Notes under the pieces: model-generated
Databases searched by the model: none
Seen by the model: only the letters and a program-made list of their open reading frames with translations
What the model was told of the DNA's origin: nothing
In this document: positions 15,932-42,544 of the stretch, one piece after another
Position numbering within the stretch: the first letter of the stretch is position 1
How the letters are laid out: every line of letters starts with the position of its first letter
Made by a program: the position numbers and the translations under genes
Source of the DNA: Geosiphon pyriformis
Taxonomy: Eukaryota > Glomeromycota > Glomeromycetes > Archaeosporales > Geosiphonaceae
Direction of reading: 5' to 3'
NCBI GenBank assembly: GCA_016748015.1
Contig: JAAOMT010000597.1
Location: 510,351-574,350 of the forward strand
Length of the DNA: 64,000 nucleotides

Positions 15932-16995
15932 AAGAGTTATAGTTGATTCACTAAAATTAATATTAATATTAGATTATTGAGATAGGTTTTGTAATATGTA
16001 ATTTAAATTTAGCTGAAATAAACCAGAAATTTAAAAATGGACATCTCCAAATGCGTCTTTTATATGAGTTCATAGCAATATTGTTCTCGTTATATTGTCA
16101 AATTTTATGAAAAATTCTTTAAAAATTTGTGTTAAATTGCTCATTTTTTAAAAAGTTAATATTTAACCATATATAAAATATCTATATTTAAAATACTTTG
16201 AAAAAATTGAACAGCTTCAAATTCGTAAAAGATATGTATTCTCGCAAAAAGTAAACTATTAAACAGCTTTGCATTAAATTATTAAAAGATATCAATAGTT
16301 GGTTCAAACAGCAAGGATATTTTAATACTTTACATAATTTTTTTAATATATATTTTCATAAGAGAACTATCCAAAATAATATTTTCAAAATTTTTAGATA
16401 TATCATGTATGTTGAAAGTATGAAAAATTTAATAATGAGTCAATTAGTCTTTACTTTTTTGAATTTCTGATAAATTAAAGAATTGATATATTAGTAAAAT
16501 TCTAAAATTAAATAATATTAAAAAAATGTACATAAGTATCTTAAATTTCGAAAGCAACACAATATATTTAAATTTTATTAATAAAATTGGATATTTTCGA
16601 AAATTTGTCAAAAGCTCTAATCTGATAATTCACATTTTATCTTTTTTAAGAAAAGGAAATTTGTAAAAAACAAATTACCCTAAGAAGTTAAATTTTGTAA
16701 TAATTGGATATTTATTATTGATGTTATTTATTTTAAATTAAAAACCGCAAATTCTGTTGGAGAAATTTTGGGCCTCTCATTTGAGATACTAAATTCTCGA
16801 CTTTAGAAGTATAATCAGTTCAAATTTTATCACAAAATACGAATTAGCTCAAGATTATCACTTTATTGTTTTTCCAAGGATAAATTCTATTATAGAATAA
16901 ACTCCCGCTAAATTGTTCAACTAAACAATTGATTTTTGAGGTCTAAAAAATTTCTATTGCTATTTTTCCAATTTCCGAAAATTTTTTGGTAAAAC
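15932..16995. other. Convergent intergenic region, no gene seen
   Basis: About 1 kb between the 3' ends of channel gene A (+) and the NmrA-RG gene (-). It is A+T-rich and presumably holds both 3' UTRs. I see no coding segment. Confidence 0.6.
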
Positions 16996-18871
16996 TTACA
17001 AACGAGCCCTAATCACTTGATTATCAGATCGGCGACCATATCGACTTCGGTTTCTGCCATCACGACGACCTTCTCGATCCCAATCATCACGACGACCACT
17101 TCGGTCTCTGCCATCACGACGACCTTCTCGATCCCAGTCATCACGACGACCACTTCGGTCTCTGCCATCACGACGACCTTCTCGGTCCCAGTCATCACGA
17201 CGACCACTTCGGTCTCTGCCATCACGACGACCTTCTCGGTCCCAGTCATCACGACGACCGCTTCGGCCTCTGTTATCACGACCACCATCACGATCACCTC
17301 GGCGACCATCACGACGACTATCACGACCACCTCGGCGACCATCTCCCTCAAGTTCTTCAATGTTTTCCTATGATTTTTGAAGGAGTAAATATAAAGTATT
17401 CATGCAGAAAGTATTAAAAATGGAAATAAAACAATTGTTGTTCTCTTTACCCTGAAGAATTCTTCGAGCGACTCGGGTTCACGACCATTAATTCTGCGGA
17501 TGTCATCGGTTGGAGATACCTTATTTTCACGCGCGTATTCAATCAAGTCGAGGCTAATAAAAAAATTTAAAGTTGATATTTAAATTTAAAAATATAAAAG
17601 CATTTAAAGGAAAATCAAGTCACTTACATTTTTTCAATTTCAAATTCTTTAATGGGAAGGAAATCCAATGGGTCATTTTCCTCGTTAAATCGGCCACGGT
17701 AACCATCACCTCTTCGGCCACGTTGATAATGACCACCATCACGACGATTATCACGATCACGAGGGCCCTCATGACCTTCATTAAGGGATCTAAGGTAGTC
17801 TTGTAATTCACGAGGATTCACTTCCTCATATTCAACTTGTTCGCGACCGAGGGTATCGTTGAGAATATCAACAATATCACCAGGAGATAGAGATTCAGGG
17901 CCAGTTAATTCGTAGACTTGATGTTTTCTTCCAGAATCTTTTCTGAATCTATTATTTTCTGTGATAATATTCGCAATGGCACCAGTAACGTCACATAAGT
18001 TGACAGGTGCAAATTCATCACGGTCTTCATCCAAGGGCAAGCTGAAATATCCGTCTTGAATTTGTTCACTCCAAAGGAGGAATACTTGTTGAAGAATTGT
18101 TGATCTATTTAAATGTGGAAAGATTGAAGAGAAATTTGGAATGATTAAGATTGAGTCAAATAATTGAAAATTTGTAAAAAGTAAAAAAGAAAACTGATGG
18201 ACTGAATACCTAAGTATCACAACATTTCGACCTTCCTCGCGCCATATTCTCTCAATTTCCTCAAATTCACGATGAGTTGCTGTTCGGCCTTCGTTAGCAC
18301 CAATGACTGACAAAACAACAACATTACGGACGTCGTTTCTCCTGGCAGCCTACAAGAATCTAATTGTTCAGTGAAAGAAAATTTTTTGTAATTAATTATA
18401 AGATTTATTTACCCTGGCTAATTTTTCAGCTTTGTTCACTCGATCTCTGTTTGATTCGGCTACCCAGACCAACCAATCAACATTTCGAAGAGCATGATCA
18501 AGGGATCTATCGTTATCAAAATCAGTTTCTCGGACTTCAGCTCCTTCATATTCCAAACGCTGGACGTTTTTATCATTTAGATTTTGAGTCAAAGCTCGGA
18601 CTTCAAAATCTTCATTGCCTCCACGGTGTTCTCGCCTTTCTGAAACTTCAGAGCGAGCGCGATTTTCGTTTCTACGACCACTTTGACCTCTTCTGCGTCT
18701 ATAATCGTCCTCATCACCATCACGACGACCACGTCGGCTTCCACACAAGAGACCTCGAGCAATTGTGTTTCCAATGTAGCGATCCGTAGATGTGACAGCG
18801 ATGTTCCAGTTTTTGTTGTGGCGACGACCAGAAACTGAACGATTTTGATCAGAAATTTCGGCTGAAGACAT
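16996..18871 (-). CDS. NmrA-like Rossmann protein with Arg/Gly-rich repeat tail (paralogue 1)
   Basis: Five minus-strand exons (18871-18413, 18349-18210, 18104-17628, 17553-17451, 17367-16996) give 516 residues. After an Arg-rich leader, residues 24-42 read NIAVTSTDRYIGNTIARGL, the place of the first strand and Gly-rich turn of an NmrA-type atypical SDR. The usual G-x-x-G-x-x-G is reduced to its last glycine. Further Rossmann strands follow (LDHALRNVDWLVWVAES; NVVVLSVIGANEGRTATHRE; a YELTGPESLSPGDIVDILN segment typical of the NmrA C-terminal half). The last 120 residues are Arg/Gly/Asp-rich and contain four 18-residue repeats. NmrA/HSCARG relatives are redox-sensing regulators rather than enzymes. 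RG tails often bind RNA; that role here is inference. It is divergent from paralogue 2 at 21954, with 3.1 kb between the start codons. Confidence 0.82.
17044..17259 (-). repeat. 54-bp coding minisatellite (4 copies), RG tail of paralogue 1
   Basis: Four head-to-tail 54-bp units, differing at only a few bases, each encoding 18 residues of the type GRRDDWDREGRRDGRDRS. Because the length is a multiple of three, copy-number change would not shift the frame. Degenerate copies lie on either side. Confidence 0.95.
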
Positions 18872-18951
18872 TTCTCTTATGCTGAATGTGGTTTGGTAAA
18901 AATAAGTGGTGTTTTTGAGACAATTACTTTTTCACGAGAGAAAGGAAGGAA

Positions 18952-18999
18952 GCAATTGGTGAGGAATCTGGGAAGACGCTGAAGCTCTGTATATTTATA
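18952..18999 (-). promoter_or_regulatory. Core promoter of NmrA-RG paralogue 1
   Basis: On the minus strand TATAAATA (18999-18992) is followed about 30 bases later by AGATTCCTCACCAATTGC (18969-18952). Nearly the same pair occurs upstream of the other two paralogues. The spacing suggests the second motif lies at the transcription start. Confidence 0.6.
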
Positions 19000-20901
19000 T
19001 TCGTTTGGAGCTGCTAAATTCTTTAGGAAGTACTGAAAAACTTTGATGAAAGAAAATAGCATGCTTTCTAACTCAAATTTTTTCTGATTAAAGATTGGAA
19101 TAATTAAAATTTTAATTATCATTGATAAAGAAAATTTTCATTGTTATCAGAAAAAGATTGCGCCATTTTCTAACATCATCGTCGATGTTGCAGTAACGGG
19201 AATTCCAACAACTTGAATTATTTTTCGTTACCCTCTATTGAAATGTTTTGTCAATTATTAAGACTTTAGCTATGTTTTTACGTTTTATTTTTTGTGCGTG
19301 AGAAAGGTTGGAGACATAATAATTTTGGGAATTCAATGAAATTTTACATCTTTGGTTGATAATTCATAAATTGAATACGCCAACTGCATGCATTAATATT
19401 GATCTAGTTTTCAATACAAAAACACCACTTTTAATTCATCAAAGATCCTTTTTTCCATTGTTTCCTTGACTTCTTATAGCTTTGGGAATTTTATATCTTT
19501 TAGAACTGGATATTTATAGAATCTCTAAATTTTTATATTTCTTTCATGATTTAAAATTACTATTATTTTCTTGGCTTTCGTATGATTTCAAAATTAATCA
19601 AAGGATATCTCTTTGAAATTTCAAACTAAAAATGTAATTAATATCCAATTTTGCTAAATAATGCTAAGTGCTAACCTCTTTTTAAAAAAATAGATCGATC
19701 GATCTGATATCAGGGATTAGATTTTTATCGAAAACGACATGTGTTAAAAAAGTACAAAAACACGAGGAACGGGAATTTTTTAAATCTTGTATCTTCCCAT
19801 TTAAGCTATAAAAACATGCATTTTATAAATTATTTGTGAAACGAAACACGAAATTTATCTAATGATATATAATATTACAAACAAAAAATAAGCTCTATCA
19901 ATGACTATTTTAAGCTATTTTGGGAAATAATTTTTTAAAAAAGGATATTTCAATTTATAAATATTTCGAGCTTTAATAGTTAAATTTTTATTTGTCGAGC
20001 ATAAATAGCAATAGTTTCCAGTTTTCGTTAATCTATTAATGTGAGCCTAAAGAGAACAATGAAAATTTGCAGTTTTTTGATTCGCCCGATCATCTGGGCA
20101 AGATTATCCGAGACAATTTTTAATGGGATGTGTCGTTTGAAAAGTATGTATAATTTTTCAAAATTATACATACAAGAATATATTTCAAGTCTTATGTTTT
20201 TTTTTCCCAGGCTGAAAATTAAAATTTTGTTTCATAAAGTTAATAAGTTAAAAGTTTTTTTGCTAATATCAGTTTGGACATGAAAAAGTCGTGGGTATTT
20301 GTTGTTATATTACATATTACAAAAATCATTACAGGCTAACAAATCGATGCCAAAATGTTTTATTCCTCTTTTAATTCAAGATTTCTTTGCAGTTAATCAT
20401 GATAATCAATATATTTTCATAATTGAACCAATTTTATACACATAAAAAATTTAATTTTTTTCTCAATTTAAAAAGCATGACTCGCAAAAAAAAAATTTGA
20501 TAAATTATTTTTAAAGGTTAGTATTTAATTCAAGATCGGGTTTGATTATGAATGAAAATTTTGGTATGAATTCAAAATACTTCAGTACCCTGTAAAGTTC
20601 CCGTCTCAAAAAAAAATAATTTGTAATCGAAAGAATGGCGTACGAAAATATTGAAAAAAACACGCCACATTATTATCAAGCAAGATAGAAATAGCTTGAT
20701 TTGTGAAAAAATTGAATAACAAATAAGATGATAGAACAAAAATACTTGGATTTATCGTTAAATTCAAAATAGGCTGAGATTTTTTAAATTTTTTTGTTTC
20801 AACGCTAAATGATAACAACTTCCTTTGATTTTGTAAGATGATTGGCTTCTGAGGTATCCCATTTAGAATTAATTTATTTTAAAAATCATCGTCATTTTAA
20901 T
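19000..20901. other. Intergenic, no gene seen
   Basis: Upstream space between the divergent NmrA-RG genes. No coding segment recognised; the 80-codon frame at 20041-20283 has no family features. A perfect hairpin with 14-bp arms and a 2-base loop lies at 20144-20173 (arm GTATGTATAATTTT). Confidence 0.55.
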
Positions 20902-20903
20902 TA

Positions 20904-21353
20904 CCGTAGAGCACTACTTATAGTACCAAGGGTATTATTCAAAACTTACTGGTCAGGAAATTGTATAGTACCCCTAAATATCATACATGGATGGAAGTAT
21001 TAAATATAAAGGGAGGGGGTACTTTTAATACTATTAATACTATTGGAATTCATTTTCAACAAGAAAGTAAAATAGATTATTCATCTTCTAATAATTATGA
21101 AAATAATCATAATATAGAAGAAGATTGTAATATTGATGAAAGTGATAGTGAAAGTTATGAAAATGAAACAACATATAATAATAGTTTGGAAGATTAAATA
21201 TGTAATAATAATCATTAAAATGTAATAAAATACCCGGGTCTTATTAAAAATAATATGAGTTATAATTTAAAAAATGCCTCAGATACTTTACAATTTTTAA
21301 AAATTAATATCATATAATGTACCCGGTCTTAATTATGCGGTAGTGCTTTACGA
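20904..21353. mobile_element. Candidate non-autonomous TIR element with TA flanks
   Basis: The left end CCGTAGAGCACTAC and right end GTAGTGCTTTACGA are inverted copies with two mismatches. Weaker similarity continues inwards (TACCAAGGGTA-TTAT against ACCGGGTAC-ATTAT on the other strand). Each end is followed outward by TA (20902-20903 and 21354-21355), as expected for a Tc1/mariner-type TA target duplication. Inside is a 78-codon frame (20961-21197) with an acidic, Asn/Ser-rich C-terminus, too short for a transposase. It may be a leftover of one or may be non-coding. Confidence 0.5.
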
Positions 21354-21864
21354 TAGTGGTTAGTTTCTTAAAATCAGTATGCCAAATAGTTAAAAATTAA
21401 TTGATGATTGAAAATAAATAAATTGGCATTAAGCAAAACAAGTCAAAGCAGTAATAATAAATTTAGGAATTCATAGTGCTTAAATTCAAATCTTTTAAAA
21501 TCATTTAGCTAATTAAACCAGCCTAATCTGAAAGTGAACAAAAAAAATGTTTCATGGTTCACATGTCCTTCCATAAAAAGATATCAAAGCTTTTCGATTT
21601 ACCGTTTCATAAAATTTACCAACGAGGAATAATGCTATATCGCATATCAGGTTAAAATTTTAAAAAGCTCACATGTTTTGCCAAATTTGATCCATGATTA
21701 TTTAAAAAAAAACTTTTAAAATAAAAAAGTGAGAAAAGGTGGGACACATGTCTTTCTTTTTTCGCCAAATTCTCGAATCTAAATCTGTCAAAAAATGCAA
21801 CCCATTACGTTTTTCTAAATACCATTTTTCCTCAAAGTTTTTCGCAAAAAGATCAAAAATCTTG

Positions 21865-21905
21865 TATAAAATAGTGGGTTTCTCCCAACTCCTCTTCACA
21901 ATTGC
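21865..21905 (+). promoter_or_regulatory. Core promoter of NmrA-RG paralogue 2
   Basis: TATAAAAT at 21865-21872 is followed by ACTCCTCTTCACAATTGC at 21888-21905. This matches the TATA plus CCTCACAATTGC arrangement of the other two paralogues, 49 bases before the start codon. Confidence 0.55.
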
Positions 21906-21953
21906 TCATAATCAAGCGATTGAGAATTCCTGAAACAAATAAATTTTTTAACA

Positions 21954-23653
21954 ATGGCCTTACAAATACAAGATAGTGTTAGTTACAGAAACCGTCGCCG
22001 TGGTGAACGTCGTTCTGATCAAGACAACAGACGAACCGGAAGAGTTGGCAACAATAGAATCGGTTTCTCGGCATGTGAGCGGTGGGTTCCAAACTGCATT
22101 ACCCGTGCCTTCGTTGGACTTTCTGGTGACACAAATATTGACCCAGAAGAATGGGACGTTTATGCACTTACTCGTCAACCCGGATGGGAACAAATCGAAG
22201 AATTGAGAAGGGCGGGCGTATGTGTACAGTTCACTGATTATAGCGACATTGATTGCTTGATGGACTCGCTCAGGGATCTTGACTATCTTATTTGGTTCGC
22301 TGAAGGTGGTAATCGTCGAGTTGAAGAATCAAAAATGATGGCTGAGGTAAGAGTTTTTTTTGAAAAAATATACATTTTTGGAGCATTCTAGAATTCGTTT
22401 AATTATTTTCTTTAAAATAAAAGGCTTGCAGGAGGATGAATGTTTGCGTCATCATGGTTTCAGTTCAAGGTGCTGATGATGGTGAAGGTAAAACTTTCGA
22501 CGCTTATAGACAAATGGAACGAGCATTTGAAAACGAATTAGCTGAAGAAGACCTCCAAATTCTTCGGTAAAATTTCTAATGTGATTAAATATGATTCAAT
22601 TTTTAATATTTACAAATGCAATAATATTTGATTATTAGATGCGCATTCATCCAACAAGCTTTCTGGTTGTTCAGCCATTATATTCGGGTAAATTGCAAGC
22701 TAAACATGATGATCGATGAATGTAATGACTTTTTCCCTCCAATAAATTTCAACGACATGGCTAATGCGATCGAAAGCTTGATGATGTGCCCTATTGATCA
22801 AAAGATCTTCACATTGACCGGCCCTGATGCTGAAAACGCTCGTGATTGCGTTGGACTGATCAACAATAGCATTACAGGTGAAATTGGGTATGCTAGGATG
22901 ACCCGGGAAGAAATGGAGGAATATCTTAGTCATCTTCCACCATATGCTTATAACCGAGAAGAAAATACATATCGTCGAGGAGGTGATAGAAGAGATCGCG
23001 ATGGTTCTCAAATTCACAATTATGGTTATGACCAATGTGATTATCCACGCCCTTTCCTCCCATTGTATTGGGCAGAAGTTGAACTCTGGCAAGTATTGAT
23101 CATTTTGTTCATTTTCAAAAATTCTGATTAATGCTAATGAGTGAATATCTTGTTGAATTAGGTGTGATTTTATGGAGTACATGAAGAGTGGTAAGGCTAA
23201 TTCCCCAACCTTGCAAGTACATGATATTACTCAAACTCCCCCTCAAGATCTTTATCAATTTTTCATGGTAAATTATATTTTTGGCTTTATATTGAGAAAT
23301 CTTTGAAACAAAATACTTACCTATCTTTAAAACAGAGGAGTTCGGATGATTTTGAGCCATCGACACGAAGAAATGGCAAAGAGGGTCGTCGGCAAGATGA
23401 TCGATTCAATCGTGGCCACCGTGGAGATTTAAGACGCCACCGTAATTGGGAAGATGATGAATATAATCGTGGTCGTCGTGGTAATTCAAGACGTCATCGT
23501 GATTGGGAAGATGATGAATATAATCGTGGTCGCCGTGGTGATTCGAGACGTCATCGTAATTGGGAAGATGATGAATATAATCGTGGCCATCGAGGTAATT
23601 ATAACCGAGGCCGTCGATCTCGTGATGGTAACCGATTCATCGCCAAGCTATAA
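21954..23653 (+). CDS. NmrA-like Rossmann protein with Arg/Gly-rich repeat tail (paralogue 2)
   Basis: Five exons (21954-22346, 22424-22566, 22639-23088, 23162-23267, 23336-23653) give 469 residues. The order matches paralogue 1: an Arg-rich leader, a degenerate first Rossmann strand (IGFSACERWVPNCITRAFV, no Gly motif left), a DLDYLIWFAEGGNRRVEESK segment, a VCVIMVSVQGADDGEGKTF strand, and the LTGPDAENARDCVGLINNS segment. The Arg-rich tail carries three 57-bp repeats. Intron 3 must start with GC (CTCTG then GCAAGT) because the only nearby GT donor would put a stop codon right after the junction. It is the most divergent of the three; the missing Gly motif makes normal NAD(P) binding doubtful. 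Confidence 0.8.
23411..23581 (+). repeat. 57-bp coding minisatellite (3 copies), RG tail of paralogue 2
   Basis: Three 57-bp units starting at 23411, 23468 and 23525, then a partial fourth, encode 19-residue blocks of the type RGRRGNSRRHRDWEDDEYN. Unit length and sequence differ from those of paralogues 1 and 3. Confidence 0.93.
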
Positions 23654-25575
23654 TATTTGACTTTAGAGATCTAATGCTATCTCGGAAGTTCAGATTTTAG
23701 AACAGAATTAGCTTTTGTACTTTTAGAGAAGATAAAGTTTTATGGATTATTAAAATAAAACAATTCTGAAATTATTAAATTTAAGAGGTTCCCAAAAAAG
23801 CCAAGAATCTCAGTTAAAGTTCCTAATAAAAGTTGTGGCATTGATAAAACCGTAATGTATTGATATTAACAGTGTAAAATTTCAAAGGTCACAAAAGATC
23901 TGGTTGCAATGTTGTAAAAGGCTTGGATGAAAAATTATGGGTAGTTTCGACAGATTATTTTCTCGAAGAACAAGACAGGGGTAAATCTCTGCGATTGAAT
24001 TATCAATTATTACAGCTAGTATTTATTTGGGCAGGTAGATGAGCAATTGCAATGATCTTTGAACATATCCCATGAGATTTGTTTTAGACAAATATCACGA
24101 TATTCTATTTAAAAAAGAAGTTAGAACTTCAAAAAAAAAACCGATCAAAAAATCACATCATTCGAAACAAAATTGCTTTTAATGAAGTTATAATTTAAAT
24201 ATTTATGTAATTCATTGTGTATGATTCTTTTAACCATGTATCCAAATGGTCTCAACAAATACTTTGAATATTATCCCGGAATTAAAAAATTTTGGAAAGT
24301 TTACTCTTTTATCAATTGAAAAATCTTAAAAAACTAAAAATAAAAGTTTGTCCCGCAATTTAGAGACAGCAAAATCAATCAATCAATCAAATCACATAAT
24401 TTTGTGTCTAAATGCTTTATGTATTTAAAATTTCAGGATTATGACTATATTATACCATTTTGCAAGTTTTAAAGTCAAATTTTCTAAATTCATCTCATGC
24501 TTGAAATTTTTTTAATTTTTTAATTATATGTTATCAATATTCATACCTGATTTTTTCTTTTAAAACTATACTAAAAATAAAATAAAAAACTAATCAACCT
24601 TAAGTTTTTGAAAAAAAAAGGTAAACTACTCAAAAAACTGATTTGAAACTTTTCTCAATAAAGCGACTTGTCTATTTCTAAAAATTTAAGTAAAAGTAAA
24701 AATCTTTTCTCATAAAATTTGTGAATTTAACCGAATAATCCAAATTCTCTAACAGCTTGATATTTGTAAAAAGGGATCTGGTTTTTTAACTGAAGAAATT
24801 GCTGACTAACAAAGTCCTAGATTTTATTGAAAATTATCTATTTCCTTTTAATCAAAAATTAATTATTAATCCAAAAACACTTTGAATTATTTGAACGAAA
24901 ATTGTGAGTTTGAAAGAGACTTTATATCTCTGTTAATTAACGTAAGAGAACTTATCACTATCAAAGAAATTTGACAAATTCATAGCAAAAGCTGCCAAAT
25001 TTATATTCAGAATAACTGAATTTTTCATTTACCCCAAATCTTTAAGTAAAGCATGTCATAAGGGAAATTTTTTTCGAATTAAAAATTATGAAGCCCAATG
25101 ACAGAGCCTCGAGAACTTTTAGTAAAATCACAAAATATTTTCACTCTGTTCCTGTTAAGTATGCACAATTTTTAATTTTGAAAATTGTTAGCTCTGGGTG
25201 CCTTTGTGCAAAAACTTGGTGACATAATAGCTACATTAATACTTTTTTTTTCGAGACTTTGTAAAAATTTCCAATTTAGTTTTTTATTTCAAAAGATGAA
25301 GAATCATCAAAGTGCTCAATTATATTAAATTATCGAATTTATAATTAAAAGGGTTTTAAAATATTTTTGCTCTAGGTTCTCAAGTCAGAGTTTTTTAAAT
25401 TGCGTATATATCAGAAAAAAATCTCCTTTTTTTGATTTTATTTTGTTAAAATGAATTAATCAATCTTCAGCCCACCATTGTTGATTGATTTATTTGGCAA
25501 AACTCTCTTAAGATGCCCATTCCCAAATATCTTGGCCTATAGACACAAAAAGAATGTCGCCATAAATCAATGATA
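23654..25575. other. Convergent intergenic region, no gene seen
   Basis: About 1.9 kb between the 3' ends of NmrA-RG paralogue 2 (+) and the Mg2+ transporter gene (-). No long frame or recognisable relic; there is a short AATC tract near 24375-24390. Confidence 0.6.
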
Positions 25576-27760
25576 TCAAATTAGTCCTCGGCGTTTGGCT
25601 TGTATCATTCCTACTACACCGATAAAGATCATTAATCCTACGATCCAGAAAAACCAAACCAGATCGTCTTGATCGTCCCCAGGTACCTTCACATTCATCC
25701 CGAAAATGCCTTGAGAACGAGAATTGAGATAAATAAATTTTGATAATTAGTAGCAAAATTTGATAGATTCACTAAGTGAATTGCTAGATTCCATCTTATT
25801 TTGGACTCCCACCTGCTATCAAAGTAGAAGGAAGAAGAATTGTGGCAAAAACTGAAAGCTTTCCAATTGCATCGTTTGTCTTATTGCTAAGTTGTGTGAT
25901 TTCAATCGAGATTTGAGCCAAATAAGTGGAATGTGATCGACCAAGAATATTTTCGCAGTGATTGATATTTTGAACCATGGTAATAATGTGGTCTGTGAAA
26001 AAGCATAAGTTTCTGAATAGATTTTTTCTAAAATTTGAAATATAGACAGCACACAATCTAAAATAAATACCTTGAATGTCATGCAAGTAGAGCTTTACTT
26101 CACCACGATCACCACCAGTTGCAAGTACTTTTTCCTCGCATCTTTTAATTAATCCTTTAATAACATCGGCTTTACTTCCCAACAATCTCAATAAACTCAT
26201 TACAACCTTTCGATTGTGCCCTATTCGCCGTAACATATCAGATTGTTCGGTTTGTCTTAAAATTAAAACGAGCTCATCCATTGTGTCTGTTTCAACTTCA
26301 ACTTTGCGAACCAGCGGTGCAAATGAGTCTGTTATGTCATCGAGAATAGCGTAGTTTATCCAATCTTTTGAGACATATTTAAAGGGCGAGATGTTTAAAA
26401 TTCTAAGTCGTATATTACGTTGAAAAAATAAAAATTTGTATTAGTATTTTTAGTATACCTGGAGTAACTTTTATGAAGTCCCTTAAATGCCTTATTCGCT
26501 CTCTGACGTTTGATGCGTGTGGTGCTTGCTTAAAATGAAACTTTTTAAATGTACAAGGAGCATTGGATTAAAATTTCTAATATTGCGAAACTATTTAATA
26601 TTTCCACAAGAATTGCAAAATATAACCTTACTGTTAAAATTCCTTCCTTCATAACAACATTGTAAATATTGACTGGTTGCAAGAAGTTTGGACTATTCTG
26701 ATCTTGAACAAAAGAACGGAAACAAATGAAGTAATATGTACGAAAAAGGTCACACTTTTCTCGTGATTCTTCCATTGCTATATCTTCCATTGTCAATGGA
26801 TGAATATTAAATATCTTGATGCAAAAGCAGATATTTGATTAAAAAGTTATCAAATGGAATTTGGATGTTTAAATTTAAGATTTGAAGCATATTTTACCTT
26901 GCTCAACATTTTCATTTCTGAATCACTTGGTGCCAATACATTAATCCAGAAAACTCCTTGCTTTAAGAGATTTTCAAAACTAGTTTCTTCAGGTGGCAAT
27001 TCAAAAAAAGAATGTGCTTGGATTGCCCCTCTCTCTACTGAATAAAATGTAAATCGTAATTTATCCGATAAGTCCTCACCTGGTAGCTTATAAATTTAAA
27101 AATTTTTGAAATAAATAAATCTTCAAGATTTCAAAAAGAATACTGTCGATATTATATAAATACCCTCGCTCGATCTCCATATAAGCTCATTTTTCGTTTT
27201 TGAATTCTTTTTTTATATGAAGAATTTCTTGAAATTGTTGGACTTAATAAAATAGGAGGACTCAAAATTGTATTTCCGAAATTTATCTCATCTCTCAAAG
27301 TATCACTCTCCTGCCATTTTATATTTTCTTCATTTGCATATTTCTCCAAAGCTTCGAAATCAATACCAGATTTAGCTTCAGAAGGCGCTGAACTAGCTGG
27401 GAAACAAAAATCTTGGGTTATATCGATATTTTCCTCGTATATTGAGCCTGCCTCTTGTTTATTATGGTAATCGGCATAGAGATCTTCAGCTGGTTCGGAA
27501 TTTTGGCTGAATAAAATGTTCGTGGGTGTCGTGGTGATGGCTAATTTTTTCGCAGGTAAAATATTGGCTGATAGTGGTGTTGGGGATTGAATTTTAAGAA
27601 TTGGTAATGCTTGAAGCTTTTGTTTTAGGGTACTAGATTTTTTGAGGATGGATGAGGTTTTTGATGAGGATGATATTCGAGAGTCGATTGATAACCTTTG
27701 TCCTTTTTCTTCGTTGTTGAAATTTAATGGGATATTTGATGAATTATTTTCACTCGACAT
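25576..27760 (-). CDS. CorA-family magnesium transporter, Alr1/Mnr2 type
   Basis: Seven minus-strand exons (27760-27164, 27086-26898, 26814-26632, 26540-26459, 26364-26071, 25992-25813, 25709-25576) join in frame to 552 residues. The first 200 residues are Ser-rich and disordered. The CorA cytoplasmic domain begins at RFTFYSVERGAIQAHSF. It continues through HPLTMEDIAMEESREKCDLF, FHFKQAPHASNVRERIRHL and WINYAILDDITDSFAP to the long stalk helix ending YLAQISIEITQLSNKTND. Two C-terminal membrane helices flank IFGMNVKVPG (about residues 510-519), which carries the GMN motif that defines CorA/Alr channels. A short basic tail follows. CorA proteins are pentamers that carry Mg2+ down its gradient; Alr1 sits in the yeast plasma membrane and Mnr2 in the vacuole, and the sequence does not say which applies here. 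It is shorter than the yeast proteins (over 850 residues), mainly at the N-terminus. Confidence 0.93.
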
Positions 27761-29147
27761 TATTGATCTTGATCAATTGTATGATTTGAAGTTGGGGATT
27801 TTTCCAAAATTAATATATTTCGGATGGTAACGAATGTTTTTAAAATTTTAATCGGAACAACGTTCAGGCTATTACGTTGTTTGTATATTTTGAAACTTTA
27901 TCATTTTAAAATAAAGCAAAGATTTACACTAGATTTTAGTTTGGTAGCCCAAAAATTATGATATTTGCATAAGGTCTCACAACCCTAGAATTCGGGTGAT
28001 ACATTTACTCTGTATGCAAATAAATGGAATCAACTGATTAATATTATAAATTGAATGATGTACCTAAACTTATGCATCGAAATATTACTACCAACTTTTA
28101 TATGACCGAAATTTAATAATCAGGTAGTTTTTAAAAAATCTTGACTGGAGGATTTTTTTTAAAAAAAATCTCCATTCTGAATTTAAATAAAATCAAGAAA
28201 TCGATCGTATTTGTCTTTTTCCGTTATCTAGCTACCAAATTTTATGAAATTAATAAAATTATTATAATTCTGAAATTAAACTTGTGTTCAGACATAATTA
28301 ATTTGAAAACTAAAACTAAAAAATTAACCATTATCCGTTAAATTAGACAATAAAAATTTTTTTTGAAAATGAAATTGAAAAATTAAAATGTTTAGATAAT
28401 CGAATCAAAAGAATTCACACATAGTAAAAAAAATTAAAACAGTTGCAATATTAAATATTCTGAAAAGAACAAAAAATTTCTGATAATAAAATAGCTAACT
28501 TATCAAAATATTTTACCAGATTTTGAAAAAAATTGGTTTGAAATAAATCTCATATTGAAACAAATAGCATATATTTAATAAAAAAGACAAAAAACTTTTT
28601 AATCACAAATATACATTATAAAATTAATATGTTATTTTCTAGCAACTTTCGAATTTTTTGAACAATTTCAATTTAGATTCATTATTTAAGGTTAAATTAA
28701 CAATTTGTTTGAATCTTTTATTAGATTTTGATTTGAAAACAATTAATTAAAGATAAAGAACCAGAAATCTTAATTTATAGTGTTTTAAAAAAACCAAAAT
28801 TGTAAATTTTTTACTATGAGTCAATCACAATCTTAAATTTTAAATATTAATAAATGATTTTATAATATATTTTAATAAGATATATGTTTGCTGTGTTTTT
28901 TTATAAAAAATTCACAATGACATTTCATCAATTAAACTAAATATTTGCAATTTTCTTATAAATTGTGCATACACTTTTTAATCTTGTCTTTCATAATATT
29001 CCAAAGACTTTTAAGTTTAAACTTCAAACATATTCTTATTTTAACACTTACTGTGGTTTTAAAAAATTGAAGTTTATTTTATTTAATGATTTTAATAGGT
29101 TACAACCAGTGTTATTTTAATTGTTACATGTTTGTAATTCTTAATTA
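27761..29147. other. Intergenic, no gene seen
   Basis: Holds the upstream region of the Mg2+ transporter gene and then A+T-rich DNA. No coding segment recognised. Confidence 0.6.
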
Positions 29148-29473
29148 CAGTAATACCTCTCTTTATAAGTACATACTCTTTCTATATGTAAACTATAGTC
29201 TCGTTTCAAGTTCGAAACTTAGAGCTAAGTGCATGCGCTTTATATTCTGCATGTGCAAACGATTCAGAATTCCAAGTAAATTAGAATACTCTCTATAATA
29301 CATATACATGATGATGACCAATCAGGTTGTTTGTTAGTAATAATAATATAGCATTAGATTTAATTTTGATTGGCTTGGTGGCTAGTCACGTGTAAAAAGT
29401 GCACGGTTTGCATTTACTGTAAAACAATATGTATTATTTAGTCCTAAGGTGTGCGCTTATAAAGATATTACTG
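29148..29473. mobile_element. MITE of pogo/Tigger type
   Basis: A 326-bp unit flanked by TA on both sides (29146-29147 and 29474-29475). The left end begins CAGTAATACCTCTCTTTATA and the right end, on the other strand, CAGTAATATCTTTATAAG. They match after a 4-base gap, so the inverted repeats are about 18-22 bp. CAG termini with TA duplications are characteristic of pogo/Tigger elements. There is no transposase frame inside, so it would need a transposase supplied elsewhere. The interior is more G+C-rich than the flanks. Confidence 0.72.
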
Positions 29474-31044
29474 TATATAAATGCAATTAAATAATGAATA
29501 TTATTATTAAAAAAAATGGGATCTAATTATTAATGAAATACTTATAGATTTACCACACATAGTTTTTTATATTCTATTTTATTTAAATATTTTGCTTCAG
29601 CTTTTTAATAATTCCATAAGAAAAATATTTGTTTAATAATTTAGTTTGTTAACTTTATAAACAGTTTTTTTTTTTACAAATCAAGTTTAAGATTAATTTA
29701 TTTAACAAAATTTTGAAAAAAATGAGTTTTTTCTTTAATTAAAATTGTGAAAAGTATTTTAATATAAAAGCAGCATAAGTTTTTTTTTTGTAACTCACAA
29801 AAAAAAAAATATATATATATATATATTTAAATTAAACCATTTTTTTGATTCTAAATTGTTTTAATAATAATGTACAAATAACTTTATAACATTGAGTAAA
29901 TTAATTTTTAGAGCTTGAATCATTTGCCTTTTTTACAACTACTTAATTTCAGAAAAAAAATAGTTGACTAATATTGTATTAAAAGATAAATTTAATAAAA
30001 ATTTATTTATACTTCCAAGTATTTTCCATTACTTTTTATAAAATAATTAATAAAAATTAACTTAAAAATTTTCAAAATTTAAAACATGTTAATTATTATA
30101 CTATATTATTCATATGTTTTTAGTATTATAGAAGAAATTATCACTTTCGAGAATTTGGAAATTAAATTAGTTGCTCGCCAAAATTCTTAAATTAAATATT
30201 ATATTAAAACCAAATAAACTCTTTACTATTCAGTAACTTAAGATAATTTTCTTAAAATAACATTAAGAAATTTAGAAATCATTGTTTTTTGTTGTCTTTC
30301 TTATAAGCTCAGGTTGTTATGTACTGGCAGTACGATTAAGCTTTATAATGACATTTTTTGGAATATTATTAATTTGTAAAATTGGAGAGATTTACGTTTA
30401 AAATGATTTATTAACAGTTTTAAAACTTTTTAATTGTGCAGTATAGTGTATAAATGCTTTTTTCGAATATGAAATGCCAACCAATTTTAATTTTATGCCA
30501 TTTCGAATTAAGTTTTAAATAAATAAATAAATAAATTTCAATTTGTCTATTAATATGTGAGAATTGCTATGGTAGTATCCAAAAATTTTTTAATAAAATT
30601 TCTAACACCTAATTTATAAATATGAATAAATATTATTTAAATTTGTGATTAAAAAAGCAATGGTAGTTATTTTGTCATGTCAAGAGTTTTTAACGCTTCA
30701 TATTTTGTTATAATTAATATTAATAAACTTAAAGATCTGAAAATAATTAACCTATTTTCTTTTTTATTTATTTTATTTATTTTTTTAAAAAAACCAATAT
30801 TTGCTCAGTTTTTTATAAAAAATATTTTTAGATGGACATTAAAGAAGGTGAATGACTTGGTTAGAAGGAAAACTGAAAATGCATCACAAAAAAAGAAACT
30901 GCTATCCAGAACGTAAATATAAAATAAAATCAAAATCGCATGTAAAAAAGGAAATATAAAATGTAATAATAATAAGGGTGGCTTGTCACTATAATTGCGT
31001 TGTGCGAAAATATTCAGTGGTTGGGCTACACCTTTGGAAGAACA

Positions 31045-31057
31045 AATAATAATAATG

Positions 31058-31104
<47 letters not shown>
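31045..31104. repeat. (AAT)n microsatellite
   Basis: About 18-20 trinucleotide units with one GAT interruption near the left end. Confidence 0.95.
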
Positions 31105-33381
31105 TTATTAGCATTTTATACTGCTAATATTTGTTTATGTTGTTTTGCTACATTACTCATTTTAAATTGAAAATTGTAGTATTTTTAAGAGTTTTGTATA
31201 ATTTATATAAGATAACAGTTAATATAATAAAGCGCTCTTGGAAGTTTTTAACTAGACAATTAAAAAATCCAGAAAATCAAAATTTGCAGTGTTTACAACA
31301 TTTTTCACTTTTTATGGATTGGTGAAAGAACTCGAAAGCTTGATGGAGTATTTTTGTAGAATTCAAGATCTGATTGGAATTAAAATTGGCTCCTAGTATA
31401 GAATTTGATTTTTCGATATAGTGACCCCTCGAAATACGGGGCAACCAAGTTAAGTACCAATGAGGTACATATTTCGATATAAATATGTTTTTGCCAACCG
31501 GAATAATTTTCAATCCTTTGTATCATTGATTTCTGCCTCCGAAAAAGCGACGTTATTGACGGAATAATTGAGGAACTAACCAGATTAATGGTGCCCCGTT
31601 TTTTGTTTTTAAGGTCTTGCCAAATGTGTTGATTCGAAAATCTGATTTGCCTTATGAAGAATGTATTGGAGGGCCGATGCAATTATCCCGACTCTGTCAA
31701 TTATCTTGATGTTCACAGATGCGTGGGAGAAATTTATCCAAGTTAATTTACGGCCATGGGAAAGAAATTGTAATTTATGAACAGTATTGGTGATCTAATA
31801 AAGTGTTAATTAAAATTTAAACAATAATGAAAGATTACTCCTATTACTAAGTTTCTATAAATAAAGATTATCATTATTATGTTCTATTTGAAATTCTATT
31901 AAAATCCAGATATATTTAAGGTGCCCAGGATTTAGGACGTTATTCAATCGATGGGAAGGATGCAGGAATCCCAAATGTGTCATTCCGTCTAGTAGGAATA
32001 ATCAAAAATCAAAAATTCAAGACAACCAAGAAAATGAAGCAGATCGTTGATAGTGAAAAGCATGACGTAACCTCTTTTAAAGTCCAACTAATACCATAAA
32101 AATAGTCTATAGTGGTGAAAAAAAGTTAGCCCTTTGACCCTCTTGAATTAAAGAGAACTCAAATAAATTCCAATTATTATGCTTCCAGTCATGCATAAAT
32201 AATATTAATCGTATTAGAGATATTCAAAGACACTGACTTTAATAAAAAATAATAAAAAACGCCCGATACTCAAAAGATTATTGGGAAGGACTTACGCCGC
32301 ATGCAAACTATCTGATGTCGTCGCAGGGAACTTTTATAATGGGAGGGCTGAAAAATAAATATGAGGAGAGTATGAATTAGATTACTCGTCATGTTCCCGG
32401 AGACATATGGGACATGGGTAAGTATTCAAAACCAATTCGGGTTTATTAAAGGGATTATCTATAGGGGCATGTCCTAATTTACCCTATGGAAAAAAAATGT
32501 AATTTGCTGTTTTCATCATTTGTGGAAGCGATTAATGGTGATTTGGGTATCATTTGTCTGAGCTGGTTCCAAGGTAAAGGAAATAAAAACACATCTACAA
32601 CCCAAATATCTAAGCTTTGCGATAGCTTGAGCTTTGAAATTAGGCCATTTTTACCGTGAACAATGGGCGGACCATTAATGTACCTTTTTCTACCCATTGA
32701 CAGATTTCTACACGACCTTTCCAAGCTTTGATGCTAGAATATCACAGAGGCTAAGGGGCAAGATAAAACTGTCATCCAAATATTCTAAGTAGATGGTAAA
32801 AACTAAAAATTTGCAAAATTTAGGATTATTTTTCTTTATACAATTAATTTTATTTAATAGCTTGCTCAAAGGGTATTTTTTTGAAAAAGATCTTTTACCA
32901 GTATCAAAATAAGAGGGTTTTTTTTAAAATTTTCTTTGAGCAATGATATCAATACAATTTAGAGAAACATTTAATCTTGATAAAAAGAACAATCTCGAAA
33001 CTTTCCCGAATATTCCTAATTAGAAAATATTCTTTTATAAAGATAATTTCAAAATTCTCATGATAATGATATATAACATTAGCTATTAATGGAAAAACAA
33101 CTTCCGATTGAAAAAGGGAGGATAAAAAACCCAAGAGATGGCTAATAACATTGCATATACTTATTGTAAATGAAAAATTGCAAAGTTACTTCCTTTTTAA
33201 CAATTATTTTTTATCTTTTATTTTCTATTATTATTTATTTTAAAATTAATGTTAATAAATTAATATTTTTATTTAATAAATAATGATTATTTATTACATA
33301 ATCAGTTTATCCAATTTTTAATTATAATTAATGCAAAACCAAAATAATTTAACATATATTTTACTGAATTTTCTTGCCAGG

Positions 33382-33407
<26 letters not shown>
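33382..33407. repeat. (TA)n microsatellite
   Basis: Thirteen uninterrupted TA units in an A+T-rich surrounding. Confidence 0.95.
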
Positions 33408-33412
<5 letters not shown>

Positions 33413-34865
33413 AAAAAACTACATGCTATTTTTATTATGTTTCTAGATATTATAAAAATGTTTAACCAATATTTATTACAATTCTTTATTTATGAAAACT
33501 CTTAAAACATTTAATAATCAAATTAAAACTCAATATTTTGAATATCTTTACAAGTCTAACTTAAACAGCGTTTTTAAAACAAAGAAATATGAAGCAAAAA
33601 TATAACAATAAATTGTTTGCTTAATTGAATAAATATTTTGTTCTTTATTATCTAATAAAATTTTAATTTTAATGTATTTTATTTAAAAATTTATTACAGA
33701 ATTTCTCAAGTTATATACTCTTCTATGCTAGTTATACATTAGCTGTTTATCGATAGGGATAAATATTAATGTAACTATAATTGTGAATGTAATGACAACT
33801 CATCTCGAAGGATATTCGAAAATTTTAATTAGTTTTTTTTTTGAAAGTAATATTAAAAATATTTTTCAAAAATATATTTTAACACATAATTTATTAGTCT
33901 TCTTTGAATCGTAGTTTTCAGGCTCATTCGACACGATTGTTAGCCAATCACTTCTAAAGTTTTCAAATTATACAAGATTTTTGAATCATTTTAAACCATT
34001 CACCAGATGTTCCCCCAATATGTGGCTTAGATTACCAATAAATTCTTTATTATATAGTCGATAATCTAAATTTAAAAATTTTCACGAATAATTCAAAACT
34101 AAATTAAAGGCTAAAAGTTTTGTTGAGCCTGGATCCTCTTTATCCCTTGAAGATACTAGGAAAAACGCAAATAATTCCCATGGAAAGTTTTTAAATTTAA
34201 TCAAAAGTTTTTGTGATATGATGCAAAAAAAAAAAATTCTTTCGAAGCCAAGAATTGGAAAGAGGGATATTTCAATTGTTTTACTATTTTTGAATTTTAA
34301 AGACATGTTGATACTGAGTATCAAAATTTGATTAGTATTATTAAAAAACTATTTCCCATTTGGAAATCACCATTGTCATAAATAATGATTTACTGTTAAA
34401 TTGTATCTAATAATCAATCTATCAAGGAGACAATAAGATAACTTAAACTTAATCTCAAAACAAAGGAATATTTGATATAATTAAAATCTGATAAAACGTA
34501 AACTTATCTTTTTCCTATTGAAAAGTTTTATCTTTCTCACAATGCAGGAGATATTTTTAATCGTATATTTGTGATGAGAAGCTTAAAGATGGACCCGGTA
34601 TTCGTGAACTGGAACAATCTTTATTAATTTTAAATAACAATGTGAAGATTATCTTTGATCATTTTTAAAATGGGTAAAAAAAGTTTATCCCACGCAGAAA
34701 ACATTATTGTTTATTTAAAGAAATCATTTTTCGAAAAAACTTCACCATAAAAGGAAGCAAATGAGAGTAATCGATATAAAATTTATTTGAAATTTAAAAT
34801 ATTTGAAATAAATTGCGTAATTAAATGATCGAAAGGAAATCTAAAAGATATTAATCCTTATCAAT

Positions 34866-34892
34866 GTAGTAGTAGTAGTAGTAGTAGTAGTA
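34866..34892. repeat. (TAG)n microsatellite
   Basis: Nine perfect trinucleotide units, the only non-AAT triplet tract of this length that I noticed. Confidence 0.93.
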
Positions 34893-35684
34893 TTTTAATC
34901 AAGAATATGATAGAATTAAAGGTTCCAAAATGGTGAAATTAAAGGAAAAATCTCGCAGCTGTCTAATAAATTCTCCAGTTTACTCACATTATTTGCCACT
35001 GAAAAAGTTTTACAATGATATTTTAAAACTATTATTTTTGTTAAAAATTTGCGAGGCTAAACTTTTAAACTTAAAATCAGAGATACTAATTAAGGAAAAG
35101 CCCTTCAGCACGTACGTTCTAAATAAAATTGTAAAAACTTTAAAGATATTCAAAAAGTCAACATCAAGCAGAAAAAAGTTATAGTAAAATTTTTTTTGGT
35201 AAAAGTTTCGCAATTAAAATTTTAAACCATCACATCAAGATTACCAAAGCAAGAACTAAATCGTTAATTTGAAAATAGAGCATGTGTCAAAGATGGTGTT
35301 GCATCAACACCAGATTACAACAAAATTTTCTTTTTAGCGGGAAAAACTTTCTATTTGTCTCCGATTAAAACATATTTTTTCTCCTTGTAAAGATTAATAA
35401 TTATCTTTTCGTGAAAAAAAAGTTGTAGTAAAAAAAAACGACTTGACACATGGCTTTCAGATGAAATGGAAGCAAAAATCATGCTTTGGTAAAAAAAAAT
35501 CCTTTTTTTAGAAGAATATAGAATTGTAGCTTTGTTGCACAAACCATTGTCCGCCAAAGCCATAATCTCCTAATGAATCACCCGAGGCGGGGAAAAAATT
35601 CCACAAAAATCTAGAATTTTAAGCATAATCTTCTTAAGTAAATCAATTAAAAAATGTTTCATCTGACAAAATTTGGAATTTAAT

Positions 35685-35729
35685 TATAAATAGAGGTCTT
35701 CTCAGCTCACTCAGATTCCTCACAATTGC
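35685..35729 (+). promoter_or_regulatory. Core promoter of NmrA-RG paralogue 3
   Basis: TATAAATA at 35685-35692, then AGATTCCTCACAATTGC at 35713-35729, 28 bases from TATA start to motif start. It is almost identical to the arrangement upstream of paralogue 1. The start codon lies about 100 bases further on, giving a 5' UTR of ordinary length. Confidence 0.65.
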
Positions 35730-35830
35730 AAGCAACAAGCAATTGACTTTTATTAATAACACAAAATAACTCTCTGTTCCCTTCCTATTTCTCATTAATT
35801 TTTTCAAAACCTATCCAAAACTAATAAAAC

Positions 35831-37486
35831 ATGGCATCATCAGTTGAAGCTGGACGTAGTCGCCGTGAAAACCGTGGTCGTGAAAACCGTGGCCGTTTCG
35901 GAAACAACAACACTTTCGCTATTTCTGCGACTGACCGATGGATTTCTAACAACATTACCCGTGCTCTACTCTCTACCTGGCGGGATCAATGGAATATCGT
36001 CGCACTTACTAATGATTGTGACGACAGGCACGTCAGACAATTGAAACAGCGAGGCGCTGATGTTCGAGAAATTAACTATGGGAATACTCGAGACATTGAG
36101 AGAGACTTGAGAGACGTTGATTGGCTGCTCTTCATAGCCGAAGCTAATCATGATCGAGTTGAGCAAGCGCAAGAATTAGCTAGGGTGAGTAAAAAATGAT
36201 TTGTGTTAATTTGAAATATTTGTAAATAATTTATTTTATCATTCATTGATTAGGCCGCAAATAACGCGGGTGTCTCCGGAGTTATTGTTTTATCTCTTCA
36301 AGGTGCTGACCGTGCCAACACCAAAACTCATCGTGACTATCATGAAATTGAAAGAATTTGGAAAGATGAAATAGAAGGTGTCACCGTTGTCAGGTAGGTC
36401 GGCTATTTTGATAAACTTGCTTTTATATTATAAATTTTTCTAAGCTTAATTTTCTATTTATCTCCTGGAATTTGTCAGAATTTCTTTACTTCATGAATCT
36501 GTCTGGTTATGGAGCCAAAATATCAAAGAAAACGGTGAATTGAACTGGACTCTTGACCAGGAAGATGACGAATTTGCCCCAATAAGTCTCGACGATGTCG
36601 TTGATGTCATCGAGAATTTGGTAGCTCATAAAAACGGTAATTTACGGGACGAGCCTGACCAAAGGGATGAAAGACAAACTTATACCTTGACCGGTCGTGA
36701 CACTTTAAGGGGTGCTGATGTTGTCGATATTATCAACAGCGTGATCAGCGGTGAAGTTGAATATCGAGAAGTTAATCGTCAGCAGCTCGAAAATTACCTA
36801 GAAAGTCTCGAGAAATGGCATGACAGAGATGACCGAGAAGACAGAGATGATGACAGAGAATCTCGTCGCCGATCTCGTCGTGATTCGGAGCGTCAAGATG
36901 GGCGGTTCGACAGGGATAATAATCGTCGTGGTAATCAGAGACGTGGAAGATTCGATGATGAAGGCTACAATTATCAACGTCCCTATCTTCCTCTCCGTCG
37001 CACCGACGTTCAGTTGATTCTCGACACTTTTGATTTCATTCAAGAAGGCTATGGCAGGAGTACCCGCGATGTTCGTGAGATCACAGGTCGTGACCCAGAG
37101 CCGCTCTACAACTTCTTTGAGGTAGCGAATTAATTCAATTTTATTGAATAATTTGAATTATGATTACAATATTTAAATGTTTTTTCCCTTTTTTAAAGGA
37201 AAACAAAGAAGATTTTGAGACTGAGAGAGATGGAGGCCGATTCGGTCGTGGTCGCCGTGGTGATTATGGTCGGGGTCGTCGTGACTGGGATGATGAATAT
37301 GGTCGTGGTCGTGGTCGCCGTGATCGAGATGATGGATATGGCCGTGGTCGCCGTGATCGAGATGATGGATATGGCCGTGGTCGCCGTGATCGAGATGATG
37401 GATATGGTCGTGGTCGTCGCAATCGTGGAGATTATGGCCGTGACGATAGATACGGTCGATATGAACAAATTCTTGCCAAATTGTAA
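35831..37486 (+). CDS. NmrA-like Rossmann protein with Arg/Gly-rich repeat tail (paralogue 3)
   Basis: Four exons (35831-36184, 36254-36393, 36479-37121, 37199-37486) give 474 residues. After an RGRENRGRFG-type leader comes a degenerate Rossmann start (FAISATDRWISNNITRALL, no glycine motif), then DVDWLLFIAEANHDRVEQAQ and GVIVLSLQGADRANTKTH. A DEFAPISLDDVVDVIENL helix and the YTLTGRDTLRGADVVDIINS segment follow; the last two are typical of the second half of NmrA folds. A highly charged Arg/Asp insert lies at about residues 280-322, and the tail contains GRGRRDRDDGY repeats. The intron that separates exons 3 and 4 in paralogues 1 and 2 is absent; the coding sequence runs straight through. A regulatory or RNA-associated role is inference from the RG tail. 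Confidence 0.83.
37310..37408 (+). repeat. 33-bp coding minisatellite (3 copies), RG tail of paralogue 3
   Basis: Three 33-bp units at 37310, 37343 and 37376, virtually identical, encoding RGRRDRDDGYG-type blocks of 11 residues. Diverged copies lie on both sides. Confidence 0.93.
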
Positions 37487-41170: not shown

Positions 41171-42544
41171 ATGATAGAAGATACAACTGGATTGGTAAGC
41201 ACAATGCACAAATCTCAATCCATTTCAAAATGGAGAATAGTGACTCGTCGGATAGCAAGAGCTGGGGATGGTGATGGTCAATGTCCAGAATGTGAACGAC
41301 CACGCGTATCATTTTGGTGTCAAAATTGCGAAAGTTTGCGACTACGTGCAAAGTTTCCTTTCTGGACAAGTGGAAACGAAAATATCGATCATTTTTTACA
41401 GGGTACTCAATTTTTTGCCGGGCGACATGTGAAATACATGGAATTTATTCCATTTTCGAGTTTCAAAAATGTAAAATATTTGTCGAAAGGGGGTTCTGGG
41501 ACTGTTCATTCTGCTACTTGGATTGAAGGACCACGCTGGAAAGCAGCACCTGTTTGGGAAAGAATTTCTGGGAGATATTATAAAAGATGTGGTTCTACCC
41601 CTGTTGCATTAAAAACTTTGAAAAATTCGGCCACAATGAGTTCAGATTTTTTTCAAGAGGTGAGTACACCCCAATATTGATTAAAAATATCCAACGTTTT
41701 GAACTAAACATTATAATTGATCTAGTTAAGACGACATCAAAACATGTTATTTCCATACTGGATAACGAAAATAGTTTATTGTTTTGGGATTTCTCAAGAT
41801 CCTATAACACAAAATTACATCCTGGTCACGGACTTTGCTTCAGATGGAAATCTTTTTGACTATCTTCAACAAGAAAAATCAAAAATTTCTTGGTCTCAAA
41901 AATTGACAATTTTAGGTCAAGTGGCTTCAGCATTAGTTGATATTCATCGTAAAGATTTAGTACACACCGATTTACATACTGGAAATATTTTGGTTGGAAT
42001 GTCCTTATCTGGGGCACAAGTTTCAATAGGTGATCTTGGTTCATGCCGCCCGATTACGTCCACATCAAATTCTCACGATGTATACGGGGTTCTTCCGTAC
42101 GTTGCCCCCGAAGTTCTTAAAGAAATATCATGTAGTTCGGCATCCGACATTTATTCTTTTGGAATAATTATGTGGGAAGTTTCTGCTGGTCAAAAACCTT
42201 TTGCCGATAGATCGCACGACTATGATCTCGCCTTAGAAATATGTAACGGTCTTCGTCCAGAGGTAGTTGCTGGAACCCCTCGGAGATATTTCAGTCTAAT
42301 GGAGCGCTGTTGGGACGCAGAGCCTGCAAAAAGACCAAGTGCTGCGGAATTGGTATCAACTCTATTAGGATCCAAAGATGCAAACGGATTTGGCGCTTCA
42401 CGTGACATAGATGATCAGAAATGGCTTGATATGTTACAAAAAGCGAAGGATGCGGTCATAAAGTATCATCCAGGGGCGGTTTATACAAGCCGATTGCTCG
42501 ATTGTCCTATTACTCGAACTCATAATGTCAAAAAAGACAAATAG
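41171..42544 (+). CDS. TKL-like protein kinase with N-terminal CxxC zinc-ribbon-like motif
   Basis: Two exons (41171-41659 and 41726-42544) give 435 residues. Two CxxC pairs (C38/C41, C50/C53) form a short zinc-ribbon-like element before the kinase domain, an arrangement I associate with the very large kinase expansion of Rhizophagus. The kinase domain has a Gly-rich loop GGSGTVHS (107-114), the ATP-binding Lys in VALK (K148), and a catalytic loop HTDLHTGN (243-250) with the catalytic Asp and Asn present. DLG (266-268) stands in place of DFG, then APE (290-292) and SDIYSFGIIMWE. The Arg of HRD is replaced by Thr. The RD-type Arg is therefore missing, but Lys, Asp, Asn and DxG are present, so it may well be active. 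Substrates are unknown. Confidence 0.9.

Follow-up and report, generated by a model that had tools for sequence, protein, structure and literature searches.

Organisation of the genes

The DNA analysed here (the window) is a stretch of 64,000 nucleotides from Geosiphon pyriformis (assembly GCA_016748015.1, contig JAAOMT010000597.1, forward-strand positions 510,351 to 574,350), and positions below refer to it unless another locus is named. It carries three neighbouring multi-exon genes, A, B and C, which we spliced by hand and whose products combine an NmrA-type body, arginine-rich stretches and a C-terminal tripeptide that fits the consensus of the type 1 peroxisomal targeting signal (PTS1).

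Specifically, gene A (minus strand, 18871-16996) has five exons and encodes 516 amino acids (aa), gene B (plus strand, 21954-23653) has five exons and encodes 469 aa, and gene C (plus strand, 35831-37486) has four exons and encodes 474 aa. An earlier model-made description of this DNA, hereafter the sequence-only reading, had placed three paralogues with an NmrA/Rossmann body in an interval whose limits coincide with the end of A (16996) and the end of C (37486), and the three spliced genes bear out this description. Homology and the splice consensus are the basis of these gene models. Exon borders are GT-AG, except for one GC-AG intron in gene B (intron 3, 23089-23161), for which the donor GCAAGT gives the best fit to the paralogues. 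The features are the following.

18413..18871, minus strand: gene A exon 1; leader, degenerate turn, Arg-rich insert and first half of the Rossmann body
18210..18349, minus strand: gene A exon 2; 140 nt, equal in C, D and E
17628..18104, minus strand: gene A exon 3; second half of the body and Arg-rich linker
17451..17553, minus strand: gene A exon 4; final NmrA body segment
16996..17367, minus strand: gene A exon 5; tail of RD/RG repeats with a 54-nt period, terminal -ARL and stop
16996..17007, minus strand: PTS1 of gene A; Ala-Arg-Leu and stop
21954..22346, plus strand: gene B exon 1; Arg-rich leader and degenerate turn
22424..22566, plus strand: gene B exon 2; spliced model
22639..23088, plus strand: gene B exon 3; followed by the GC-AG intron (donor GCAAGT)
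23162..23267, plus strand: gene B exon 4; final body segment
23336..23653, plus strand: gene B exon 5; tail of repeats with a 57-nt period, terminal -AKL and stop
23642..23653, plus strand: PTS1 of gene B; Ala-Lys-Leu and stop
35831..36184, plus strand: gene C exon 1; Arg-rich leader, degenerate turn and half of the Rossmann body
36254..36393, plus strand: gene C exon 2; spliced model
36479..37121, plus strand: gene C exon 3; second half of the body, RD/RG linker and last segment
37199..37486, plus strand: gene C exon 4; tail of repeats with a 33-nt period, terminal -AKL and stop
37475..37486, plus strand: PTS1 of gene C; Ala-Lys-Leu and stop

Intron 2 of gene A (18105-18209) contains no in-frame stop, and the open reading frame (ORF) 18313-17624 runs through it; retention of this intron could therefore give an isoform longer by 35 residues.

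Six-frame searches of the 124.7 Mb genome were carried out with two pieces of C, and each of them gave five places, corresponding to A, B, C and two further paralogues, D (621 aa, on C162) and E (401 aa, on C346). Since such a search scores the best candidates only, this number is a lower bound: the family has at least five copies, and the idea of a three-copy local family was rejected. Intron positions mostly match among the paralogues, with C lacking the third intron and E having one extra. A pseudogene reading was rejected as well, as the five paralogues keep open frames over four to six exons. No relatives of a 112-residue piece of C were found in viral contigs.

An NmrA/QOR2-type body with a degenerate dinucleotide turn

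The Pfam families NmrA and NAD_binding_10 both match the bodies of all five paralogues, D and E included, at E-values up to 0.1. Curated cut-offs were compared for A, B and C, and D and E were judged by E-value alone. NmrA matches A (3.2e-12) and C (6.9e-8) above the cut-off; B is below it in both families (NAD_binding_10 0.0015, NmrA 0.15). In NCBIfam, gene A gave a weak match to ergot_EASG (0.00065; score 19.3 bits, cut-off 256.4), which we take to be another NmrA-type short-chain dehydrogenase/reductase (SDR). When a profile of the five paralogues was compared with the PDB, the best match was QOR2/YtfG (1.6e-11), followed by an NmrA family regulator (5.6e-11); KstA11, NDUFA9-type subunits and NMRAL1/HSCARG were matched too.

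Structure prediction, which the sequence-only reading had proposed as a check, supports the same fold. The best of five AlphaFold models of gene C exon 1, built from three aligned window sequences, has a mean predicted local distance difference test score (pLDDT) of 60.6 and shows a strand-helix unit repeated four times. Its best PDB fold match is QOR2 with NADPH (E 9.8e-4, template modelling (TM) score 0.61 by query), which is also the single match at E up to 0.001. The Rossmann fold is thus seen in the model of the first half of C, the second half being without a reliable model. The last folded segment of the family reads [IV]-[TN]-x-x-x-P, followed by a helix ending in FF or similar. By eye, it corresponds to the very end of three canonical NmrA proteins encoded in the same genome, so that the tail and the tripeptide of A to E appear as an extension.

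At the dinucleotide-binding turn, A reads VTSTDRYIG, B FSACERWVP and C ISATDRWIS. The strings TSTDRYIG, SACERWVP and SATDRWIS, described beforehand as a degraded Gly-rich turn, are therefore present. As a reference, the three canonical NmrA genes found elsewhere in the genome, joined by hand over their first intron, all carry V[ST]GATGxQGG. In the family, the GxxGxxG pattern is broken: the first and second glycines are absent from all five paralogues and the third is kept in two of them. Specifically, the first Gly is replaced by Ser or Ala throughout and the second by Arg in four paralogues and by Ser in D, while at the third position A and E keep Gly, C and D have Ser, and B has Pro. In addition, an acidic residue directly precedes the second turn position in every paralogue, and the replacement motif [SA]-x-[DE]-[RS]-[WY]-[ILV] is common to them. 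As the replacement turn is alike among paralogues, it suggests a new use rather than decay. The five printed PDB profile alignments all start past the turn.

In conclusion, the proposal that the fold was reused without its usual dinucleotide turn is supported, the first two glycines being gone in all five proteins and the fold being recognisable both by profile and in the exon-1 model. Taken from the residues of the turn, it is likely that the body has lost the usual mode of NAD(P) binding.

A PTS1-type tripeptide at the end of all five proteins

The last tripeptides are ARL in A, AKL in B and C, and SRL in D and E, all five fitting [SAC][KRH]L. This end had no place in the sequence-only reading. 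The PTS1 consensus is stated as S/C/A-K/R/H-L in the available text of a study that also reports the use of SRL as PTS1 in Magnaporthe (PMC3566003). According to the available part of a work on Histoplasma, the commonest tags among PEX5-dependent proteins are AKL, SKL and ARL, and both ARL and SKL direct a fluorescent protein into peroxisomal puncta (PMC13343957).

The window has 996 stop-ended frames of at least 30 residues; an end of the type [SAC][KRH]L occurs in five of them, three being those of A, B and C. If residues are drawn from the last 60 of each protein, the chance of obtaining the tag is 0.0006 for A, 0.0005 for B, 0.0002 for C, 0.0008 for D and 0.0015 for E. Pairwise comparison of the paralogues showed agreement at the last position in 10/10 pairs, at each of the two positions before it in 4/10, and at positions -5 to -14 in 0 to 3/10.

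The ends of related genes of the same genome served as control. The three canonical NmrA proteins end in GKN, GKK and GKK, and a PTS1-type end was found in none of four single-frame NAD_binding_10 genes, which were taken to end at the stop of the frame; the tag is therefore absent from all seven in-genome relatives with readable ends. Two C354 genes (ends unreadable, introns), C389 and C321 were left out of this control. As to the import machinery and its cargo, Pex14_N matches at two loci of the genome, and the acyl-CoA oxidase encoded in it ends in SKL.

All together, these data identify the family as SDRs of the NmrA/QOR2 type by sequence and fold, lacking the turn motif and carrying the PTS1 motif. 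Judging from the tag, we regard targeting of A to E to the peroxisome as likely.

Arginine-rich leaders, linkers and tails

The sequence-only reading had also described Arg-rich leaders and RG/RD repeat tails. The leaders are present in B and C; in A the leader is hardly Arg-rich, and the Arg block is an insert (residues 48-77). The leader of D is an RD/HD run. An Arg-rich linker lies inside the body, ahead of its last segment, in A to D. Four of the five proteins have Arg-rich windows at the leader (in A, the insert), linker and tail; E has one only at its end.

The repeat tails are real and in frame in A, B and C, where RG, GR and RD dipeptides come with 0 to 2 Lys. The 121 residues of the A tail include 44 Arg, 22 Gly and 26 Asp (36% Arg, net charge +11), the 105 of the B tail 30 Arg, 12 Gly and 14 Asp (29% Arg, net +10), and the 93 of the C tail 28 Arg, 22 Gly and 18 Asp (30% Arg, net +7). 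These tails are not a family-wide trait: the tail of D, with 21 Arg and 19 Asp among its 91 residues and a net charge of 0, is weak in this respect, while that of E, 37 residues long, has no RG or RD dipeptide. RG occurs 3, 9, 9, 4 and 0 times in the tails of A to E, respectively, interspersed with Asp, and RGG is rare (1, 0, 0, 1 and 0). The pairing of the body with an Arg/Gly tail is thus real in the window, yet it is not constant across the family.

The repeat periods differ (54 nt in A, 57 in B, 33 in C), which points to a probable separate origin of the repeats; within A, certain copies are 96-97% alike. In the linker of E there is a Gly/Asp run (L037 3520-3600), and in the tail of D an Asp run (L036 1121-1180), which indicates that low-complexity growth is placed differently in each paralogue.

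The different periods, the near-identical copies in A and the fact that E manages without a repeat tail would agree with neutral minisatellite growth of the tails, selection acting on the body and PTS1 only, a view compatible with a peroxisomal location. We consider it rather unlikely, since the separate repeats have one residue palette in common and Arg-rich windows recur at the same three places in four of the five proteins.

The Arg content of the A, B and C tails, their dipeptides and scarce Lys, together with the RD/HD run in the leader of D, are also what would be expected if the tail were an RNA-binding or condensate-forming domain of a nuclear or cytosolic protein, like arginine-rich mixed-charge domains. 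The sequence-only reading had suggested such a tail, joined to the reused fold. As the defining feature of the family, an RNA/condensate tail is not supported, since the tail of E lacks RG and RD and that of D is weak and net neutral; RGG is found just once each in the tails of A and D. In addition, all five proteins end in PTS1; this predicts a peroxisomal location, in which one would not expect RNA binding. We therefore hold the RNA-binding or condensate explanation to be improbable.

Other features of the window

At 15340-15542 and 55338-55540, separated by about 40 kb, two pairs of similar stretches (77 and 85% alike) lie in or beside two similar large genes, which are presumably channel-like. 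Two Sel1-repeat proteins are encoded at 46430-47551 and 57095-57694, and a kinase-like protein at 41744-42544. An imperfect tandem repeat of about 75 nt (12833-13099) lies inside the long ORF 11518-14079, for which no Pfam match was found at E up to 0.01. At 60001-64000 the guanine-cytosine (GC) content rises to about 0.4 with a strong GC skew; no Pfam match was found for the ORF 60518-61099 located there.

Discussion

The data presented above lead us to favour, with moderate confidence, a reading of A to E as peroxisomal, probably cofactor-less NmrA pseudo-oxidoreductases, whose Arg-rich stretches would serve as spacers or matrix contacts. In this scenario, based on the tag, PEX5 would recognise the exposed tripeptide and carry the protein, already folded, into the peroxisome. 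Between fold and tag, the Arg-rich stretch would be at least a flexible spacer keeping the tag exposed; the body, devoid of its dinucleotide turn, would probably bind a partner or assemble, and the Arg/Asp/Gly-rich linkers and tails may provide multivalent contacts, weak in nature, within the matrix. That the Arg-rich parts act as spacers or as a scaffold is the more tentative element, and we put it forward as a possibility somewhat short of an even chance.

Several observations weigh against this reading. As regards the tag, the paralogues share ancestry, so that the five tags are not independent and their chances are not to be multiplied, and positions -15 and -17 agree in 6/10 pairs as well. 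SRL, the tag of D and E, is absent from the available text of the Histoplasma paper (PMC13343957), and the malate synthase of this genome ends in SKI, outside the strict consensus. Moreover, the stops of A (window 16994-17001) and D (L036 1065-1072) lie in TTGTAAGT, which is also donor-like, so that tagless isoforms are possible. As regards the body, the structure models are weak: the other four exon-1 models have pLDDT values of 49.9 to 42.0 and the exon 3 model (37.2) is unusable. Finally, A and E retain the third Gly of the turn and B, D and E the Arg after the second strand, and an unorthodox mode of cofactor binding is possible.

These retained residues bear on a further explanation, in which the proteins are working NADPH-dependent peroxisomal reductases with an unusual turn and incidental tails. 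By eye, the body does reach as far as the terminal segment of canonical NmrA proteins, and the nearest solved relatives include QOR2 and NMRAL1; however, all five paralogues have lost the first two glycines, their turn carries an acidic residue and, in most of them, Arg, and the five printed PDB alignments start beyond it. A working reductase is thus doubtful, and we give it little credence.

Among known systems, QOR2/YtfG and the NmrA-family atypical SDRs (PF05368; PDB 2zcu, 8r2j) have the same Rossmann body and are the best profile and fold matches; A to E differ from them in lacking the Gly-rich turn, in having PTS1 in all members and in having an Arg-rich linker and tail in most. The NADP sensor NMRAL1/HSCARG, of the same fold family and among the profile and fold matches, has been solved with NADP according to PDB titles, whereas A to E are without the first two turn glycines and have an added tail and PTS1. 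An HSCARG-like protein has been described in Fusarium, as far as the available text goes (PMC12028961).

NDUFA9/NUEM of complex I has a related SDR fold. A complex I subunit reading was set aside although NDUFA9 is among the PDB matches, and no scan for mitochondrial targeting was made. NDUFA9/NUEM is a structural, mitochondrial subunit of complex I, and we know of no Arg-rich tail or PTS1-like tag in it. TIC62 of chloroplasts has an NmrA-like body followed by a repeat tail for protein binding; unlike A to E, it has other repeats, a chloroplast location and an intact dinucleotide site. HEX-1, the core protein of Woronin bodies, carries a PTS1. It is compared with A to E by PTS1 and by logic; the Pfam scans returned SDR families and weak matches to GTP_EFTU and DUF6063, and no search aimed at HEX-1 was made. 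These two weak matches, like the NCBIfam U2AF_lg match of one member (0.0019), were treated as low-complexity or chance, with no further test.

The septal SPA/SPP proteins show Arg-biased disorder as in the tails of A to E, and the available text describes the disordered regions of SPP proteins as biased to Arg and His, as avoiding Gly and Lys, and as important in septal accumulation (PMC10023807). One could imagine a peroxisome-imported, cofactor-less NmrA scaffold whose multivalent Arg/Asp/Gly tails form a dense matrix body for hyphal wound sealing or septal plugging; this coenocytic mycorrhizal fungus would then have an equivalent of the Woronin body that arose independently. Such a scaffold would suit PTS1 on five proteins, repeat tails on most of them, the importance of Arg- and His-biased disorder in SPP proteins and the behaviour of wounded arbuscular mycorrhizal hyphae, which stop leaking within seconds by an unknown mechanism (PMC12712441). 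It is nevertheless most improbable: according to the available text, nobody has ever observed Woronin-like bodies in fungi of this group (PMC12712441), and SPP/SPA regions (PMC10023807) avoid glycine, unlike the tails of A to C.

The claim that no described family shows this pairing agrees with our survey: no such NmrA family is present among the literature matches listed for Glomeromycota/Rhizophagus, for RGG/RNA binding and for the peroxisome. If the peroxisomal pseudo-oxidoreductase reading is right, it would add a family of peroxisomal pseudo-enzymes to a fungal group with, among the matches listed, little literature on peroxisomal targeting, and the functional question would shift from RNA granules to the peroxisome. 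In addition, it would illustrate that a short conserved terminal tag can tell more than a conspicuous repeat tail.

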